DNA of 64,000 nucleotides, taken from contig NZ_AQXE01000006.1 in NCBI RefSeq assembly GCF_000375485.1, forward strand, positions 18,963-82,962, read 5' to 3'. Made by a program: the position numbers and the translations under genes. The DNA is from Desulfovibrio oxyclinae DSM 11498. GTDB lineage: Bacteria > Desulfobacterota > Desulfovibrionia > Desulfovibrionales > Desulfovibrionaceae. How positions within the stretch are numbered: position 1 is the stretch's first letter; each line of letters starts with the position of its first letter. This document shows, in pieces, positions 44,586 to 54,784 of the stretch. Under the pieces are notes generated by a model, which worked only from the letters and a program-made list of their open reading frames with translations, was not told the DNA's origin and did no database searches.

Positions 44586-46772
44586 CTATTCTCCTTCCTT
44601 CTCGATGCGACACATTAACGCGGAATGGGGCCAGCTGCCGATTTCCGGGCTACAGAATTCAGGAGCGTCCGGGCACAGGACGTTGGTATTCGACTCAAAA
44701 ACTCCGAACAGTTCCGGTAGCTTGTCGCTTCTTTCAGGGAACCACCACGAATGTTGTGCGTCCGCCATGTGTGGGTGGATGGCATCCGTGACATGCACCC
44801 GCTGCCGGATCGATCCTAGCGGTGTCGAAATCACGGCCCAGTCGCCCTCGGCCAAACCAAGCTCTTTGGCGGTATCCGGATGAATCGATACCAGAGGATC
44901 CGGTATCTTCTTGCGGGCCTTTTCAATCTGCCGCTGCTCTGAATGATACATCGGCATGAATCTGCTTCCGGTTATCAGAATGATCGGATATTCGTCCGAT
45001 ATTGAGGAATCCCTGCTCTCGGGGCTCCAGATCGGCTCGCGATATGTGGGCAGGGGCTCCGCTCCAAGTTCTTCGAAGATAGAAGACTTCAGTTCAACCT
45101 TGCCGGACGGAGTGCCGAACCCGTGATTTTCGTACTGTCTGTATTCCCTCTTTCCGAGAAGACCGTTCTGCTCCGCCAGCTGCTGGAATGTCAGTCCGAC
45201 CGGTTCCAGACAGTGGTCATAAACCTCTTCCACGGTCTCCCACGGCCAGTACTCTTCCTGTCCGAGCCGCACTCCAAGCCCGCGATAGAAATCATAGCTG
45301 CTGCGACGCTCCTCTATGCGCTCAATACCTTGCGGGCAGGCCACGCAGAACCCGCTGGTCAGCCACAGCTCCGGCTGTTCCACGGTGGTCGCTGCCGGGA
45401 AAACATAGTCGGCCATGGCTGCGGACGGAGTCATGTAATACTCCATGACCACATAGAGCTGAAGAGCCTGCAATGCCTCGAACACCTGCTTTGTATTGGG
45501 CAGGGCCAGAAGCGGATTGTTGGCCAGCGTGATGGCGGCGGTCACAGGGTACGGCTCGCCGGTTGTGATGGCGCTCATCACTTCCCTTGCATGAGCCAGA
45601 TTGGAATGCCATGCCTCAGGCGCAGCGACGTATCCATGAGGCAGTTTCTTGTTGGCCGCCGAGTTCATTTCCCACCCAGGGAAACCGAAGAACGGATACT
45701 TGTCTATGCCCAGCTGCTTGGCCCGCTGCTCACCGGAGATCATGTCATTGAGTTCAAGAAACTCAAGGTCTCGAATCTTTCCGACTTCACCGGCCATACT
45801 GAAACCGTCGCCGCCCTCAATTTCCAGATTGCCCGTGATGGCGCGCAGGATCGCCCTGCCCCTCGCGCATTGCGTGGAGTTGACGCCTTGCTTGTCCAAC
45901 CCAAGCCCGAAGGGAATGACCGCCGGGCCGGAGGTGGCGTACATTCTGGCGGATTCGGCAACCATCTCGGGAGGCACCGAGGTAATTTCGGCCACCTTTT
46001 CCAAGGTATAGGAATCCACTGCTTCCCAGAGCTCTTCAAATCCCACTGTCCAGTTGGCCACAAAATCCTTGTCATGCAAATCGTTTTCGATGATGTAGCG
46101 TATCCAGCCCAACATCAGGGCGAGGTCCGTCCCGGGGCGAATCTGCAGCCACAGATCGGCGGATTCAGCTTCTTTCGTCCGACGCGGGTCGATGACGATG
46201 AGCTTCGCGCCGTTTTTGCGTGCCTTGCTCACTTTGGGGTACATTCCCACGGGGCTCGACTTTGAAGCATTGCACCCCCACATGACGACGCAGCTCGCGG
46301 TCATGACCTCGCTGCCCATGACCATGCCGCCGTATGTGGCATACTCGGTGGCATAACTCGGACACATGCAGATGGTGTTCACGCCGCAGGTGTTGGGAGA
46401 GCCGAAGAGGTTGAAGAAGCGGCGGCAGTCCCAGTGGTAGGTCCGTTTGGTGCCGTGGGTGAAAGTCAGCGTTTCCGGGCCGAACTCATCCTTCAGCTTC
46501 CGCAGTTTATCGGCCACCTCGTCAAGAGCCTGATCCCAACTCACCCGTTCCCAGCGACCTTCCCCGCGTTTGCCGACACGCTTGAGCGGGTAATTCAACC
46601 TGTCCGGATGATATATGTGATCCAGCATCAGCCGTCCGCGTTCGCAAATGGCTCCGCGGGTGATCGGATGATCCGGATCCCCGGTGACTTTCACGACCTT
46701 GCCGTCTTCAATATGTAACAGCGTTCCACAGCGTGGATGACATAGGCCGCAATAACTTCTGCGCACTTCCAT
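44586..46772 (-). CDS. Mo/W-bisPGD oxidoreductase, acetylene-hydratase-like
   Basis: The 728-residue product belongs to the DMSO reductase family. An N-terminal 4Fe-4S site uses C8, C11, C15 and C43. YPLKRVGKRGEGRWERVSWD and DPRRTKEAESADLW match molybdopterin-binding segments. C135 in NTICMCPSY aligns with the tungsten-ligand cysteine that I recall for Pelobacter acetylene hydratase, which also has similar length and no Tat signal. The protein lacks a signal peptide, so it should be cytoplasmic. No Fe-S or membrane partner gene is adjacent. The substrate is unknown; acetylene hydration is only one option. It starts after AGGAG. Confidence 0.85.
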   Translation of the reverse strand: MEVRRSYCGLCHPRCGTLLHIEDGKVVKVTGDPDHPITRGAICERGRLMLDHIYHPDRLNYPLKRVGKRGEGRWERVSWDQALDEVADKLRKLKDEFGPETLTFTHGTKRTYHWDCRRFFNLFGSPNTCGVNTICMCPSYATEYATYGGMVMGSEVMTASCVVMWGCNASKSSPVGMYPKVSKARKNGAKLIVIDPRRTKEAESADLWLQIRPGTDLALMLGWIRYIIENDLHDKDFVANWTVGFEELWEAVDSYTLEKVAEITSVPPEMVAESARMYATSGPAVIPFGLGLDKQGVNSTQCARGRAILRAITGNLEIEGGDGFSMAGEVGKIRDLEFLELNDMISGEQRAKQLGIDKYPFFGFPGWEMNSAANKKLPHGYVAAPEAWHSNLAHAREVMSAITTGEPYPVTAAITLANNPLLALPNTKQVFEALQALQLYVVMEYYMTPSAAMADYVFPAATTVEQPELWLTSGFCVACPQGIERIEERRSSYDFYRGLGVRLGQEEYWPWETVEEVYDHCLEPVGLTFQQLAEQNGLLGKREYRQYENHGFGTPSGKVELKSSIFEELGAEPLPTYREPIWSPESRDSSISDEYPIILITGSRFMPMYHSEQRQIEKARKKIPDPLVSIHPDTAKELGLAEGDWAVISTPLGSIRQRVHVTDAIHPHMADAQHSWWFPERSDKLPELFGVFESNTNVLCPDAPEFCSPEIGSWPHSALMCRIEKEGE

Positions 46773-48906: not shown

Positions 48907-50256
48907 CTACGAATTGATGCCCAGATCCTTCATCTTTTTCCAGAGAACCTTGCGGCTGATGCCGAGCTGCTCGGCGGCGAGCTGTTTTCTGTTGCCGGTC
49001 TGTTCCAGTGCGTGGATGATGCGCTCGCGTTCGTACTGGCGCACGCCGTCCTCAAGACCCACGGTATCTTCCACGCACCCCGGAGCGGCGGGCGGTTCCT
49101 CACCCCGCACCCGCTGCGGCAGATGCCCGAGGCGAACCACACCCTCCTGCGTGAGCAGCACGGAGCGCTCCACGATATTGCGCAATTCCCTGATATTGCC
49201 CGGATAGTCATAGCTCAGCAGGGCGTTCTGGGCCTTGGGCGAGATGGTGATGCCTTCCTTGCCGTGTCGCGCTCCGTAGAGTTGCAGGAAGTGCTGCATG
49301 AGCTTGATGATGTCGTCTCCGCGTTCGCTGAGCGGAGGCAGCGTAATGGGCACCACATTGATTCGGTAGTAGAGGTCTTCGCGGAAAGCTCCTTCTTCAA
49401 GCGCCGCGTCAAGGTCCTTGGCTGTGGCAAAGACCGTGCGCACCTCCACCCTGATGGGTGTGTTGCCCCCCACGCGGGTGATCTCCCCGTCTTCCAGAAC
49501 GCGCAACAGCTTGGCCTGAAGCGAAAGCGGCATGTCCCCGATTTCATCAAAGAAAAAGGTTCCGCCGTTGGCAGCCTCGAACTTGCCCACCCGCCGCTTG
49601 TGCGCGCCGGTAAACGCTCCCTTCTCATGCCCGAACAGTTCCGATTCCAACAGGTGCTCCGGCAGCGCAGAGCAGTTGATCTTGATGAATTCGCAGTCGT
49701 TTCGGGCGCTCAGGTTGTGCAGAGCATTGGCCACCAGCTCCTTGCCGGTGCCGCTCGGCCCCAGAACAAGCACCGGAGTACAGGCGTCGGCAATAGCCCG
49801 GATCCGCTCGAACACCGGCTGCATGGCCTGCCCGCCGATCATCTCGTCCAGCCCGGCGCTGGTCTTGAACTGGACGTTTTCGCGCTTGAGCTCGCGGTAA
49901 TTGAAAAACCGCTCCACGGCGATGAGCAGCCCTTCGTTGCTGAAGGGCTTGCAGAGAAAATCGAAGGCGCCCTGTCGCATGGCCTTCACGGCCAGCTCAA
50001 TTTCGGGGAAGGCAGTGATGAGCATGGTCCCGGTTCCGGGATACAGCTCTTTGACCCGCCCCAGCAGATCGAGCCCGGAGATGCCCGGCAGGCGCATGTC
50101 CGTGATGAGCAGGTCAAAGCTGCGTTCCGTCATGGCCTGTAGCGCGCTGTCCGCATCCTCGTAGGATTCCACGGAATATCCTTCCGCCGTGAGTGTGTGC
50201 TGAATCCCGATGCGGATGGAGAGTTCGTCCTCCACAACTAAAACATTCCGACTCAT
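48907..50256 (-). CDS. Sigma-54 dependent response regulator, NtrC family
   Basis: The 449-residue activator has a receiver domain (D53 in LLITDMRLPG, K103 in CKPF) and an AAA+ domain with Walker A GPSGTGKE (166-173), GAFTGA (213-218) and FFDEIGDMP. The C-terminal Fis-type HTH reads EQTGNRKQLAAEQLGISRKV. GAFTGA means that it contacts sigma-54. It overlaps the kinase gene by four bases. A sigma-54 promoter with flanking palindromes lies upstream of this operon, so it probably activates its own operon. Confidence 0.95.
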   Translation of the reverse strand: MSRNVLVVEDELSIRIGIQHTLTAEGYSVESYEDADSALQAMTERSFDLLITDMRLPGISGLDLLGRVKELYPGTGTMLITAFPEIELAVKAMRQGAFDFLCKPFSNEGLLIAVERFFNYRELKRENVQFKTSAGLDEMIGGQAMQPVFERIRAIADACTPVLVLGPSGTGKELVANALHNLSARNDCEFIKINCSALPEHLLESELFGHEKGAFTGAHKRRVGKFEAANGGTFFFDEIGDMPLSLQAKLLRVLEDGEITRVGGNTPIRVEVRTVFATAKDLDAALEEGAFREDLYYRINVVPITLPPLSERGDDIIKLMQHFLQLYGARHGKEGITISPKAQNALLSYDYPGNIRELRNIVERSVLLTQEGVVRLGHLPQRVRGEEPPAAPGCVEDTVGLEDGVRQYERERIIHALEQTGNRKQLAAEQLGISRKVLWKKMKDLGINS

Positions 50257-51713
50257 CTATCCTTCTCCCTGCGCGGCAGATGTATGGCGAACACGCTGCC
50301 CTCTTTGTCCGATTTGGCCAGAACAAGCCTGCCGCCGTGCTGCTCGGTGAGCGACTTTGCCAGCGCCAGCCCGAGTCCGGTGCCCTCGCCCACGTCCTTG
50401 GTGGTGTAGAACGGATCGAAAATTCGTTCGCGTATTTCTTCCGGGATGCCGGGCCCGGTATCCGAAATCATCAGGGTGAGCCAGTCCTTCTCGGCGTAGC
50501 CTTCGATGATGATGGAGCCGCCCTCGGGCGTGGCGTGCACCGCGTTCACCAGCAGGTTGACGACCACCTGCTGCATCTTCGCGCTGTCCATGGGAACCTG
50601 CGGAAGCTCATCCGGCAGGGTCACTTCAATGCGCACATGACGTTTCCTGCTGAACAGCTCAAGCAGCGAAACGCTTTTGCGAACCACGTCCTCCACATCG
50701 GCGGGCTGAATCACCAGCGACGACTGGCGCGAGTAGTCCAGCAGGTCCCGCATAATCTTGCGAATACGCTCAATGCCGGAATGGATGACCTCGATGTGCT
50801 GCTCCCGGGCCTGCTCGTCAAGTTCTCCCTTGGTCAGGTTGTTGAAGCACAGAATGACCCCGCCGAGGGGATTGTTGATTTCGTGCGCGATGCTCGCTGT
50901 AAGCTTGCCGATGGTCGCCATCTTCTCGGTGTGGAACATCTGCTCTTCCGCTCTGGCGCGCTCCTCTTCCTCGTCACGAAGCCGGCGAACCATCCACGCG
51001 AAACTCTGCTGAAGCTGGCCAATTTCGTCCTTGCGTGCGGGCAGCTCCGGGAAAGGTCGTGAAAAATCCTTGTTCACGGTGAACCGTTCCATGGCCCCGG
51101 AAAGCTTCTTGAGCGCCTTGACCTGAAAATGAATGACGATCCCGACCAATAGTGCGGAGATCAGCAGGCACAGCCCGGCGATGAGCAGAATTTCGTTCCG
51201 CGCGGAAACCCTTGAGCGCTCGATGTTCTCCAGCGAAAAGACGAGACGACAGTAGCCCCAGCGCTTGGACTCGATGGCCAGCGGCATGGAAACGGCGAGG
51301 GCGGCGTCATAGCCCTCCCCGACAACCACCGTGCGCAGTCCGGACAACCCCTTGAGCTGTCCGACGTCTTCCCACGCCTCGGAGCGGCTGTTGTTCGCCA
51401 CCACTTCCCCGCGCTTGTCGAGCACCGCGAAGGCCAGAATCCTCGGGTCGGTGCGCATGACATCGGAGACATAGTAGGAGAGGTAGTCCACCATGTCCGT
51501 CTCGTCGAGCATCTCCAACTCTTCGTAGATAAAGGTGTTGGTGAAGACGATGGCGGAGGCCTTTGTCAGCGACACCGCCTGCTGCCGTGCAGTCTTCATG
51601 AGCAGCTCACGCTCTTTTTCGAGCATGGAATAGGCGGTGGCGAAAATAGCGCCTGAGATGCACAGCAAGACTATCGCGATGGATCGAAACCGCAGTCCTC
51701 CGGGGAGAGCCAT
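50253..51713 (-). CDS. Membrane sensor histidine kinase
   Basis: The 486-residue kinase has a membrane helix at about 10-28, a periplasmic domain at 30-150 and a second helix at 155-175, then HAMP. The phosphorylation box is TASIAHEINNPLGGVILCFN, N box NLLVNAVHATPEG, and G boxes DTGPGIPEEI and GTGLGLALAK. I choose ATG 51713 because GGGGGTAGGG lies upstream and the longer frame overlaps the binding-protein gene. It begins two bases after that gene's stop. The response regulator follows with a four-base overlap. Confidence 0.92.
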   Translation of the reverse strand: MALPGGLRFRSIAIVLLCISGAIFATAYSMLEKERELLMKTARQQAVSLTKASAIVFTNTFIYEELEMLDETDMVDYLSYYVSDVMRTDPRILAFAVLDKRGEVVANNSRSEAWEDVGQLKGLSGLRTVVVGEGYDAALAVSMPLAIESKRWGYCRLVFSLENIERSRVSARNEILLIAGLCLLISALLVGIVIHFQVKALKKLSGAMERFTVNKDFSRPFPELPARKDEIGQLQQSFAWMVRRLRDEEEERARAEEQMFHTEKMATIGKLTASIAHEINNPLGGVILCFNNLTKGELDEQAREQHIEVIHSGIERIRKIMRDLLDYSRQSSLVIQPADVEDVVRKSVSLLELFSRKRHVRIEVTLPDELPQVPMDSAKMQQVVVNLLVNAVHATPEGGSIIIEGYAEKDWLTLMISDTGPGIPEEIRERIFDPFYTTKDVGEGTGLGLALAKSLTEQHGGRLVLAKSDKEGSVFAIHLPRREKDR

Positions 51714-51715
51714 CC

Positions 51716-52579
51716 CTACCCCCCGTACCCGTACCGGGCGGCGCATTGGAGCAGGTCCCGGACCTTGGAGTAATCGGAGTCGGCAACCGAGACGAACCCG
51801 TTGCGCAGCAGCGGACTCCATCCTTCAGCCTTGGAACGCAGTTCAGGCGAGGAATAATCCATCCCCAGCAGAAACTGCCTGAAACGCTCGACCCTCGGAA
51901 TCCCCGGCGCTCTGGCGGCAAAGACGAATCCCGGATGCGACGGGGTGCGGGCAAGGGTTTTCAACCCTTCCCCGGCAAACCGCATGAACGTGGACGCCGA
52001 AACCGCTCCTGCGTCATAGTTGCCCCGGAGCACTGCCCGGACAACGGCCTCGTGGGTGCGCAGATTCTCCGCCTTGACGAAATCGGCGCGCTCCACGCCG
52101 TTTTTTCCGAGAAAGCACAGAGGGTGCAGATAGCCGGAGGTGGAATGACGGGAGGCAAAGGCGAAACGTTTGCCCCGCAGGTCCTTCAGGGTGGCAATGC
52201 TCCCGCCGGTTTCGCGGGTGAAAATGACGGTGCGATTCGTGGGGGTCCCGTCGCCTGAAAGGACACCGCACAGGGGCGTGATGTCGGCGGAAGCCCGGCG
52301 TGCTTCGAGGTAGGACAGCCCGCCCAGCAGAGCCACGTCTATCTCGTCATCCAGCAGATCCCGGATGATGCTCTCGTAGTCCTTGGCGAGCACAAGCTCG
52401 ACGGTCAGCTCGGAGTGTTCGGAAACATGGTCGGTGAACGGCAGGTACTGCCGATACATCATGAGCGGATGACTCAGGGTGATGACGCCCAGCCGCAACG
52501 GGTCGCCGGAACCCAAGGCAGGGGTTGATGCGACCAGCAACAGCAGCATTAGGGCCAGAATACGCGCCAGCCTTGTCAT
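51716..52579 (-). CDS. PhnD-like periplasmic substrate-binding protein
   Basis: The 287-residue product has a signal peptide (MTRLARILALMLLLLVASTP, then ALGS) and a type II periplasmic binding fold of the phosphate/phosphonate group: LRLGVITLSHPLMMYRQYLP, then DDEIDVALLGGLSYLEARR and LRGKRFAFASRHSTSGYLHP. No ABC transporter genes are present. Its place directly before the kinase suggests it reports ligand to the kinase's periplasmic domain. The ligand is probably a small oxyanion, which is an inference from the family. Confidence 0.88.
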   Translation of the reverse strand: MTRLARILALMLLLLVASTPALGSGDPLRLGVITLSHPLMMYRQYLPFTDHVSEHSELTVELVLAKDYESIIRDLLDDEIDVALLGGLSYLEARRASADITPLCGVLSGDGTPTNRTVIFTRETGGSIATLKDLRGKRFAFASRHSTSGYLHPLCFLGKNGVERADFVKAENLRTHEAVVRAVLRGNYDAGAVSASTFMRFAGEGLKTLARTPSHPGFVFAARAPGIPRVERFRQFLLGMDYSSPELRSKAEGWSPLLRNGFVSVADSDYSKVRDLLQCAARYGYGG

Positions 52580-52600
52580 CCGTTTAGCGACTCCCGGGAG

Positions 52601-53068
52601 TTAGAATACCTTCCTGACCTGACACGGCACCTTCCGCGTGAGGCAGTGCGAAAGACTGAACGGGTTGAATCGTTTCCGTTCCCCGCCGATCACCAGAAGC
52701 TCGGAGCGCGTCTCGCGCACATGCTTCGTGATGCAATATAAGGGAGCATCCCATTCTATGTACAGTTCATAATCCACGTTCAGGGCCTCGGCTTTGGCGG
52801 TTACGCGCTCCAGCCGCTGCCGGACGTCATATTCCTCCTGCCTTCGGGCGTGAATGATGAAATCGCTCCGGTCGCCCTCGGTGGCAAGCGAGTCCACCTG
52901 ACCGTAATGGCTCAGGTCGGATTCCACCACATGCACGATACCGAGTGTGGCAGCGTTTTCCGCGCAGTAGGAAAGCGCAAACTCTTCGGCCTTGAGACAG
53001 TTGTCCCTGCCGGTGGTGGCCAGCAGGACGTTTTTCGTTCCGGATGCAACCGCTGCGTCTGACTGCAT
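52601..53068 (-). CDS. Universal stress protein family protein
   Basis: The 155-residue product has a UspA-like alpha/beta fold: NVLLATTGRDNCLKAEEFAL at the start, ATLGIVHVVESD, and ELLVIGGERKRFNPFSLSHC at the end. The ATP-binding GXXG(X9)G(S/T) motif is degenerate. I choose ATG 53068 because GGGAGGG lies upstream. The longer frame reads through a hairpin. It is part of the YeiH operon, and its role there is unknown. Confidence 0.8.
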   Translation of the reverse strand: MQSDAAVASGTKNVLLATTGRDNCLKAEEFALSYCAENAATLGIVHVVESDLSHYGQVDSLATEGDRSDFIIHARRQEEYDVRQRLERVTAKAEALNVDYELYIEWDAPLYCITKHVRETRSELLVIGGERKRFNPFSLSHCLTRKVPCQVRKVF

Positions 53069-53090
53069 GGTCGATCCCTCCCTGTGAAGA

Positions 53091-53170
53091 TGCACCGGCA
53101 GCCGCATGTTTTTCGGGGCTGCCGGTGCAAGAAAATATTTATGGAGCCGCACCGTCGGTTGTGCGGCTCC
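53091..53170 (-). other. Two strong hairpins before universal stress gene
   Basis: TGCACCGGCAGCC (53091-53103) pairs with GGCTGCCGGTGCA (53117-53129), and GGAGCCGCAC (53143-53152) pairs with GTGCGGCTCC (53161-53170). The second is followed on the minus strand by an AT-rich stretch and could be a partial terminator within the operon. Confidence 0.7.
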
Positions 53171-53183
53171 ACCTGGACCTCGT

Positions 53184-53288
53184 TTAACTGTTCATTGCAA
53201 TGGCAACGAAGACCAACCCTATACCGAGCAAGCAGACCATGAGGTCCTGCTTGCGACTGGAGGAGAGACGTTTCAGATAACTCAGCAT
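53184..53288 (-). CDS. Small 34-residue membrane protein
   Basis: The short frame encodes MLSYLKRLSSSRKQDLMVCL followed by LGIGLVFVAIAMNS. It has a basic N-terminus and one membrane helix. GGGAG lies about nine bases upstream of ATG 53288. It sits 20 bases downstream of the YeiH transporter gene on the same strand. Small subunits of this type often stabilise a transporter. That role is inferred. Confidence 0.68.
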   Translation of the reverse strand: MLSYLKRLSSSRKQDLMVCLLGIGLVFVAIAMNS

Positions 53289-53308
53289 GGCGTAATACTC
53301 CCTGCTTA

Positions 53309-54388
53309 TCAGTTGATGAAGTACAGAACCGCGAGCAGCGCCAGCCCCGCCTTGAGAGACGCGACGGTGAAGCCCACGACAAATCCGGACACGCCCGCGG
53401 CCTTCAGGTCGGACAAGCGCGTGGTCAGGCCGATGCTGGCGAAACCAAGAAGGAACGCCCATTCCATGAAGCCCTTGGCGGTTTTGACGGCGGGATCGCT
53501 CAGCATGCCCATGGTGTTCATCATGACCACGGCGAGGAAGCCGAGGACGAATACGGGGAACTTGGACAGGATGATCTGCTTCTTGTTCACCGGCTCGCAG
53601 GACAGGCTTGATTCGCGCTGGCAGGCCATGAGCGTCAGCATCAGCACGATGAACGGCAGGAATATGACCCGGCCGATATTGTACACGCCCGCAATGATCC
53701 CGGCCTCGTCGCTGAATCCGAATCCGGCTGCCAGCACCTGTGCGGAGTTGATGATGCCCACGCCGGAGAATGCGCCGTACTGGGCATCGGAAAGATTCAG
53801 CAGCTGCCCCAGCGGAGGGAAGACGATCAGCGCCAGCAGGCCGAACATCAGCACCACCGCGATGGAGTAGGCCATTTCCTCTTTCTTGGCGTTGACGGCC
53901 GGGGCCACGGCGATGGTCGCCGAGACACCGCACACTGAAAGTCCGGCCGCGAGACATGCCGTCAGGGACGTGGGCATGTTGACCTTCTTGCCGACCCACA
54001 TGAGCACGATCGCGGACATGAAAAGGAAGAAGAAGATCATGCCCAGTGCCTGTCCGCCCACGGTCACCAGCCCCGCGAGGGAATACTTGGCTCCCATGAC
54101 CACGATGCCGGTCTTGGTGAGAATGGTCGAAAAGCGAAGCCCCGGACGCATGATCTGGGGAACGCCCACCGTATTGCGGATGGCGATACCAACGATAATG
54201 GCGAGGATGAAGTCCTTCAGAGTCAGGTATTTCTGAAAGAATTCATAGTTCTTCAGCATCGGCGCGGCCTGATGCGCGCCCACCGCCACGGCTATGACCA
54301 GGAAAAGCCCCGGAAGGCTGTCGATCACTTCCTGGGCAAAGGTTCTGGGGAGCGGAGCTCCGTTTGCACTTGCGTAGTTGTTTGACAT
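53309..54388 (-). CDS. YeiH/UPF0324 family membrane transporter
   Basis: The 359-residue product is a YeiH-type putative anion exporter with about ten helices. Family segments are TKTGIVVMGAKYSLAGLVTV, CLAAGLSVCGVSATIAVAPA and SGVGIINSAQVLAAGFGFSD. The start at ATG 54388 follows GGAGG. Relatives are called putative sulfate exporters, and substrates differ and are mostly unproven. It is the first gene of the operon that encodes its probable sensor and sigma-54 activator. Confidence 0.88.
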   Translation of the reverse strand: MSNNYASANGAPLPRTFAQEVIDSLPGLFLVIAVAVGAHQAAPMLKNYEFFQKYLTLKDFILAIIVGIAIRNTVGVPQIMRPGLRFSTILTKTGIVVMGAKYSLAGLVTVGGQALGMIFFFLFMSAIVLMWVGKKVNMPTSLTACLAAGLSVCGVSATIAVAPAVNAKKEEMAYSIAVVLMFGLLALIVFPPLGQLLNLSDAQYGAFSGVGIINSAQVLAAGFGFSDEAGIIAGVYNIGRVIFLPFIVLMLTLMACQRESSLSCEPVNKKQIILSKFPVFVLGFLAVVMMNTMGMLSDPAVKTAKGFMEWAFLLGFASIGLTTRLSDLKAAGVSGFVVGFTVASLKAGLALLAVLYFIN

Positions 54389-54410
54389 GTATACCTCCGA
54401 CTCTCCCAAT

Positions 54411-54426
54411 GGCAAAACACGTGCCA
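54411..54426 (-). promoter_or_regulatory. Sigma-54 promoter of the YeiH operon
   Basis: On the minus strand the sequence reads TGGCAC-GTGTT-TTGCC, a match to the -24/-12 consensus with correct spacing. It is located about 25 bases upstream of the YeiH start codon. The sigma-54 activator in the same operon is the likely partner. Confidence 0.88.
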
Positions 54427-54500
54427 GCCTTCACAAGTCGGTAAGTATCCGATTTATAGAGCATTTATTCTACAACCGACGACACCTTCGCATACGCATT

Positions 54501-54548
54501 GTTCCCCACCGGGAACAAAACGAACCAGATCGGTTCCCGAAAGGGAAC
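54501..54548. promoter_or_regulatory. Paired GTTCCC-N4-GGGAAC palindromes, probable activator sites
   Basis: GTTCCC-CACC-GGGAAC lies at 54501-54516 and GTTCCC-GAAA-GGGAAC at 54533-54548. Their centres are 32 bases apart, close to three helical turns. They lie about 80-120 bases upstream of the sigma-54 promoter, the usual distance for enhancer sites. Confidence 0.8.
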
Positions 54549-54768
54549 AAAAACCTCAGCTTCCTCTCTGTATTGCTCATACAGACGACAAGCGCCCTCT
54601 GGATGAGTAATGGTTGAGAAAGATATCACATCGTCAACACACTCCCATAACAACCTGAAATACTGTGATATCATCCCGAAAGGTCGTCTTCTGACTTTCC
54701 CTACGCAACGACGCATAGCCCTTCGTTCAGAAGGTCTTTTTTTCTACGACCATCGCGGTAGGGATTGC

Positions 54769-54784
54769 GTTCCCAACAGGGAAC
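54769..54784. promoter_or_regulatory. Third GTTCCC-N4-GGGAAC palindrome
   Basis: GTTCCC-AACA-GGGAAC repeats the same palindrome about 350 bases upstream of the sigma-54 promoter and just beyond the secA terminator. It may be a remote enhancer site of the same activator. Confidence 0.7.

Follow-up and report, generated by a model that had tools for sequence, protein, structure and literature searches.

A sigma-54 circuit with its own palindromic site and an oxyanion-type sensor probably drives a YeiH-family exporter in Desulfovibrio oxyclinae

In the 64,000-nucleotide stretch of Desulfovibrio oxyclinae DSM 11498, a bacterium of the sulfate-reducer group, analyzed here (hereafter the window, whose positions are used throughout), a minus-strand row of genes running from 54388 to 48907 encodes, in this order, a YeiH-family exporter (yeiH), an open reading frame (ORF) of 34 codons, a universal stress protein (usp), a PhnD-like sensor (phnD), a kinase, and an NtrC-type regulator. 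A sigma-54 promoter and three palindromes precede yeiH. The features are as follows.

54769..54784, no strand assigned: third palindrome, upstream; exact GTTCCC-N4-GGGAAC, no tandem partner by eye
54533..54548, no strand assigned: palindrome 2, paired enhancer-like site; exact GTTCCC-N4-GGGAAC, 32 bp from palindrome 1
54501..54516, no strand assigned: palindrome 1, paired enhancer-like site; exact GTTCCC-N4-GGGAAC
54411..54426, minus strand: sigma-54 (-24/-12) promoter TGGCACG-N4-TTGCC; one mismatch to consensus
53309..54388, minus strand: yeiH, YeiH/PSE-family transporter, 359 aa; PF03601, 188.6 bits
53184..53288, minus strand: one-helix microprotein ORF, 34 codons, 34 aa; S-S-S-R-K-Q-D motif
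52601..53068, minus strand: usp, universal stress protein (Usp); PF00582
51716..52579, minus strand: phnD, PhnD-like periplasmic oxyanion-binding protein, probable sensor; PF12974
about 50253..51713, minus strand: membrane histidine kinase; HAMP, HisKA, and HATPase domains
48907..50256, minus strand: NtrC-type response regulator; receiver, AAA+ domain with GAFTGA, Fis-type helix-turn-helix

A sequence-only reading of the window had described an exporter-like protein, a PhnD-like sensor, and a kinase in one operon that ends with its own sigma-54 activator, and the domain matches bear this out. The last gene (50256-48907) encodes a protein with the receiver, the sigma-54 AAA+ domain, and the helix-turn-helix of an NtrC-type activator, and an rpoN-type (sigma-54) gene is present in the same genome (PF04552, 208.8 bits). 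YeiH passes the curated cut-off of PF03601 (24.5 bits), the family of the YeiH/PSE exporters, which include SuyZ and E. coli YeiH, but it differs from that group in its score of 99 bits against the YeiH subfamily model TIGR00698, below the cut-off of 232.6, and in the microprotein that trails it. A search of the PDB by sequence found no relative of YeiH, and its structure model was poor (predicted local distance difference test score, pLDDT, 40.1) and was set aside unused. The model of the sensor (pLDDT 90.8) ties with the structures of PtxB, AioX, ArrX, and PhnD, which bind phosphite, arsenite, arsenate, and phosphonate, respectively. The sensor scores 102.5 bits against the PhnD equivalog model TIGR03431, short of the cut-off of 261.1, and 114.2 bits against the broader TIGR01098, just meeting the cut-off of 112.05. 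No ABC transporter genes lie within the operon. The usp gene and the 34-codon ORF are operon members that were missing from the earlier gene list.

The promoter, TGGCACGTGTTTTGCC at 54426-54411 on the minus strand, has one mismatch to TGGCACG-N4-TTGCW. Sites with up to two mismatches are not above chance in the window (7 observed, 12.3 expected), but on a sigma-54 weight table made by hand from the consensus, the yeiH promoter alone, among the 127,970 positions of the window, scores as high as 22.6. Measured between starts, palindrome 1 lies 90 bp and palindrome 2 lies 122 bp upstream of the promoter, which spaces the pair by 32 bp, and the third lies 236 bp beyond the pair. The near-perfect promoter, the two phased palindromes at enhancer distance, and the third copy beyond them were thus all found as the sequence-only reading had placed them. 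In the genome of 3,324,581 bases, these three are the only exact copies of GTTCCC-N4-GGGAAC, against about 0.3 expected under independent bases and two copies of a reversed control pattern. The palindrome signal rests on the exact sites and on their conservation, because at up to three mismatches the palindrome is no commoner in the window than chance (35 observed, 32.5 expected).

Relatives with the operon were gathered by YeiH searches and by sensor searches, and yeiH, usp, phnD, and the regulator occur together in 12 genomes found: that of the window, G128, G340, G327 (same contig as L004), G347, G196, G094, G124, G085, G026, G376, and Desulfocapsa sp. NORP205 (L008). Every one of the 12 has two features in the 700 bp before yeiH: a palindrome with 10 or more of 12 positions matched, and a sigma-54-like site with a score of 20.0 or higher. 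Sites of the latter kind would be expected 0.073 times per 700 bp, on a background estimated from these operon loci. A partner palindrome with 9 or more of 12 positions matched lies at 31 or 32 bp, a spacing of three helical turns, in eight of the genomes. We also compared 12 yeiH-only loci (L005-L007, L009-L014, and L050-L052; yeiH 54-69% identical), which have no phnD, kinase, or such regulator in the DNA compared, L009 and L014 ending soon after or within yeiH; no palindrome, at up to two mismatches, lies within 2 kb of yeiH in any of them. These results indicate that the palindromes are conserved upstream of the yeiH operons of relatives, where they accompany the regulator.

The operon is rare, being found in 10 of the 348 genomes of the class. 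The G376 sensor retrieved 12 of 395 genomes of the phylum at E ≤ 1e-60, all of them Arr-type (see below), already known or not followed further, and 1 of 46 genomes in the order of G376, namely G376 itself. Among 93 genomes of the family to which Desulfocapsa belongs, a sensor search picked out three: Desulfocapsa itself, G778, and G806. In G094 the sensor homology ends near residue 228, and G376 has a second sensor-kinase cassette on another contig. The Desulfocapsa locus (L008, 12646-15071) carries the regulator gene in two tandem copies, the first of which (320 aa) has homology spanning only residues 1-323 of the regulator of the window. In G128 a natural disruption of yeiH sits downstream of a promoter that looks intact. 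Downstream of yeiH in the yeiH-only loci L005, L011, and L012 (also L009), there is a cysteine synthase-cysteinyl-tRNA ligase fusion gene.

The specificity of the paired site was assessed with the pattern GGGAAC-N15/16-GTTCC-N6-GGAAC, built from these sites and sought in the 348 genomes of the class, eight of which matched. The pattern occurs in 6 of the 10 operon genomes of the class (G000, G128, G327, G124, G085, and G196), always at yeiH, and in 2 of the 338 others (G088 and G233), neither of which has such a sensor at E ≤ 1e-40. The nominal P for these counts is 2.4e-9; it serves purely as a description, since known sites supplied the pattern and the value carries no correction for relatedness. 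The remaining operon genomes, G340, G347, G094, and G026, were unmatched because their pairs are degenerate, and a strict pattern demanding both pairs of half-sites in full was found only in G196 and G376 among five genomes tried. Exact palindromes away from the operon in G128, G085, G026, and G340 were taken as chance occurrences, because they lie in or overlap open frames 120 codons or longer and no sigma-54 score nearby exceeds 17.8. The conservation of the sites together with the regulator, and the rarity of the pair in genomes lacking the operon, support the overall interpretation offered by the sequence-only reading.

In a tree of 53 regulators, from which the G778 regulator and a truncated copy in L092 were left out and in which some rows are long and support is weak at several deep branches, the 13 regulators of the operon loci (Desulfocapsa contributing two) form one clade with support of 100/99. 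Eighteen regulators near more distant YeiH-family genes form a separate group (100/100), and the Arr-type regulators likewise fall outside the operon clade. The recognition helix reads SRKVLWKK or TRKQLWLK in the operon clade and is SRVALQKI-like in the set of 18. A different palindrome, TGC[AT]AA-N6-TT[AT]GCA, is present in exact form in 6 of 11 promoters of the more distant YeiH-family genes; our guess is that it corresponds to the DVU0539/DVU0946 site of D. vulgaris. Sigma-54-like sites were also seen upstream of such genes (L129-L135, L137, L141, L142, and L148), most of which lie near NtrC-type regulators. The co-occurrence of site and regulator, taken with the well-supported regulator clade, suggests that the operon regulator binds the GTTCCC palindromes.

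In two relatives the site extends to other genes. Three more palindromes occur in G376 (L093/L112). Two are exact and the other has a single mismatch, and all have a partner 31/32 bp away in which 8-10 of 12 positions match. One lies upstream of an OprP-type porin gene, where the best sigma-54 score is only 17.2; another upstream of a Rex repressor gene, with a sigma-54-like site of 21.9 at +236; and another upstream of a Tat-signal molybdoenzyme gene, with a sigma-54-like site (L093:14152) about 420 bp away. The molybdoenzyme gene is followed by an iron-sulfur subunit gene and then by an incomplete frame, cytochrome b-like by eye. In G778 (L165:7353-16475), a palindrome matching 11 of 12 positions lies, together with a sigma-54-like site (21.8), upstream of a row comprising genes for a molybdoenzyme and an iron-sulfur subunit, a gap, and then a chaperone-like gene, phnD, a kinase gene, and a regulator gene. 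No partner stands 31/32 bp from this palindrome, nor does any yeiH lie within the 19.5 kb examined. Thus, the circuit is self-contained, as the sequence-only reading had put it, in that D. oxyclinae has no exact site elsewhere, but this part of the claim does not extend to G376 and G778, where sites stand at other genes.

The molybdoenzymes of G376 and G778 are 77% identical, and their best NCBIfam match is PhsA (318 and 300 bits, respectively; cut-off 694); for the protein of G778, the top PDB match is 2vpw, a thiosulfate reductase. The presence of such Phs/Psr-like proteins beside palindromes hints at sulfur oxyanions. At E ≤ 1e-60 this molybdoenzyme was found in only 2 of 14 genomes searched, and the genome of the window is not one of the two. 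The window does encode a molybdopterin oxidoreductase of 728 aa (44586-46772, minus strand), which matches formate dehydrogenase alpha and PhsA models, both below cut-off; it is a different protein from the G376/G778 type, and no tie to the regulon was found. In G806, sensor and kinase genes adjoin DsrP-like and TtrA-like genes, and no regulator homologue above 55 bits and no palindrome was listed at that locus.

The product of the 34-codon ORF is a microprotein whose positively charged start bears an S-[SKA]-[ST]-R-[KR]-Q-D-like motif and which also contains a hydrophobic helix. Homologues, 26-41 residues long, lie no more than about 250 bp past yeiH in all 23 testable loci. These are the 12 operon loci and the 11 yeiH-only loci whose sequence continues beyond yeiH (L014 ends too early to count), so that the microprotein is present with or without the regulator (the window, L005-L013, L045-L052, L065-L068, and L093). 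The motif varies in the copies of G026, L010, and L052. A text-pattern scan of all compared loci found the microprotein solely at these yeiH genes, except for an unlike 24-residue match in L013, and no copy was found behind the more distant yeiH paralogues L053, L054, and L129. A Shine-Dalgarno-like stretch lies upstream of all 10 copies listed, and among the four nearest copies synonymous codon differences exceed nonsynonymous ones in all six pairs (8-14 against 4-8). Searches of Pfam and NCBIfam returned no match to the microprotein of the window and, for four other copies, nothing above cut-off. This conservation suggests that the YeiH exporter concerned may not work as a single subunit.

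The observed gene order, domains, promoter, paired sites, and co-occurrence of the sites with the regulator make it fairly likely, in our judgment, that the operon is a self-activating sigma-54 switch with its own site, which senses a small oxyanion outside the cell and drives a YeiH exporter; on the comparative evidence, the circuit itself is probably real. The PhnD-like periplasmic protein would bind a small oxyanion and signal to the adjacent kinase, which would phosphorylate the NtrC-type regulator. The regulator would bind the two palindromes, three helical turns apart and about 100 bp upstream, and, presumably by DNA looping, activate sigma-54 polymerase at the -24/-12 promoter. Activation would yield the YeiH-family exporter, its putative one-helix partner, and Usp, and, because the sensor, kinase, and regulator would be switched on as well, it would generate positive feedback. 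The exporter most probably carries a small oxyanion or what that oxyanion is reduced to, and a sulfur oxyanion is our leading guess. A more specific version is doubtful, although it would accommodate the sites seen in relatives: the sensor and regulator would respond to sulfite or thiosulfate, YeiH and the microprotein would form a two-subunit exporter, and the circuit would include in relatives the Phs/Psr-like molybdoenzyme, Rex, and an anion porin. If it holds, sulfite or sulfate formed as a product could be exported, as in sulfur disproportionation.

Several observations weigh against this self-activating switch, in which binding, expression, and transport stand as predictions. In G347, G094, G124, and G085, no more than 7-8 of the 12 positions of the partner site match; another offset scores better in G347 and ties in G085 and G376. 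G376 has only a 10-of-12 palindrome at its yeiH promoter and no kinase gene between sensor and regulator in that cassette. In G128, yeiH is interrupted by an IS1595-family transposase gene (L113:14362-15202), and the G778 regulator may be broken or misread, because its helix-turn-helix homology is out of frame with the remainder. The reversed control of the pair pattern matched 5 of the 348 genomes (G046, G016, G270, G313, and G160), so that the two hits outside operon genomes are at chance level, and the recovery in operon genomes is partly by construction, because the pattern was drawn from these sites. Outside the genus the sensor identity drops to 35-44%, and therefore the ligand may differ.

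The operon resembles the three-component arsenic sensors AioXSR and ArrXSR in encoding a PhnD-family binding protein, a kinase, and an NtrC-type regulator together. An arsenic-oxyanion system of that branch, with YeiH exporting an arsenic species, would account for this shared architecture and for the tie of the sensor fold with AioX and ArrX. The nearest cassette relatives, 18 Arr-type loci (L094-L111) with sensors 30-38% identical, point the same way: at least 10 adjoin a DMSO-reductase-family molybdoenzyme; of three classified, those of L098 and L107 match ArrA (1,026 and 1,049 bits; cut-off 1,600), and that of L094 is closest to TtrA; and six loci carry an SBF-family transporter gene and an LMWPc-type ArsC-like gene (clusters C6 and C7). 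However, in a comparison of flanks of a few kb that listed clusters present in at least three loci, the arsenic-type clusters C6, C7, and C10 were confined to the Arr-type loci and found in none of the operon loci compared, and against ArrA (cut-off 1600) the molybdoenzyme adjoining the operon in G128 reaches 117 bits. Unlike AioXSR and ArrXSR, the operon would drive a YeiH exporter, not an arsenite oxidase or arsenate reductase. The cysteine in the EDCQGD stretch of AioX, which we take to be the arsenite ligand, aligns with a leucine in the operon sensor clade, in an alignment of moderate quality, and no palindrome at up to one mismatch was found in the 18 Arr-type loci, even though their recognition helices (SRKTLWEK and SRKNLWEK) are near the SRKVLWKK of the operon clade, a resemblance that itself weighs against the self-activating switch. 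The operon would thus work like AioXSR and ArrXSR, with membership in that branch no more than a hypothesis, and we regard the arsenic explanation as unlikely.

A link to lactate or pyruvate, in which YeiH carries an organic anion and is regulated like DVU0542-0545, DVU0943-0946, and DVU2133-2132, has its precedent in D. vulgaris. The main texts of two studies describe sigma-54 operons with PSE-family transporters controlled by DVU0539/DVU0946 (PMC3333781, PMC4641369), regulators that control their own operons and each other's (PMC3333781), and two PSE-family transporters co-regulated with lactate genes (PMC4641369). The operon would share with these regulons sigma-54 promoters, self-regulating NtrC-type regulators, and PSE-family transporter targets. 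According to the main text of Kazakov et al., substrate specificity of the sigma-54-controlled TSUP and PSE transporters is without data (PMC4641369). No PhnD sensor appears to be described for these regulons, as the word "phosphonate" occurs in the main text of neither paper. That no described regulon uses the present site, as the sequence-only reading had it, holds for the main texts of these two papers, neither of which contains GTTCCC. Conversely, the sampled more distant YeiH genes have regulators in a separate clade and, in the 6 promoters noted above, another palindrome, and the rarity of the operon contrasts with DVU0946 orthologues, which are reported in all environmental Desulfovibrio. 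These differences make a lactate-type role quite improbable. It could also be supposed that the palindromes serve another activator or repressor encoded elsewhere and that the adjacent regulator is incidental, its binding being predicted only; however, site and regulator co-occur, the yeiH-only loci lack the site near yeiH, and in G778 the site stays with the sensor-regulator cassette in a stretch with no yeiH, so that we give this explanation very little weight.

Overall, the self-activating switch would be a variant of the three-component sigma-54 systems already described, one in which the exporter has, unexpectedly, a putative microprotein partner. Because an oxyanion-sensor fold is joined to an exporter, the question of substrate becomes testable, as the ligand of the sensor would be a strong candidate for the transported substance or for its precursor. 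The recurrence of the pairing of site and switch in distant relatives would thereby provide a testable lead to the function of the poorly understood YeiH pumps.

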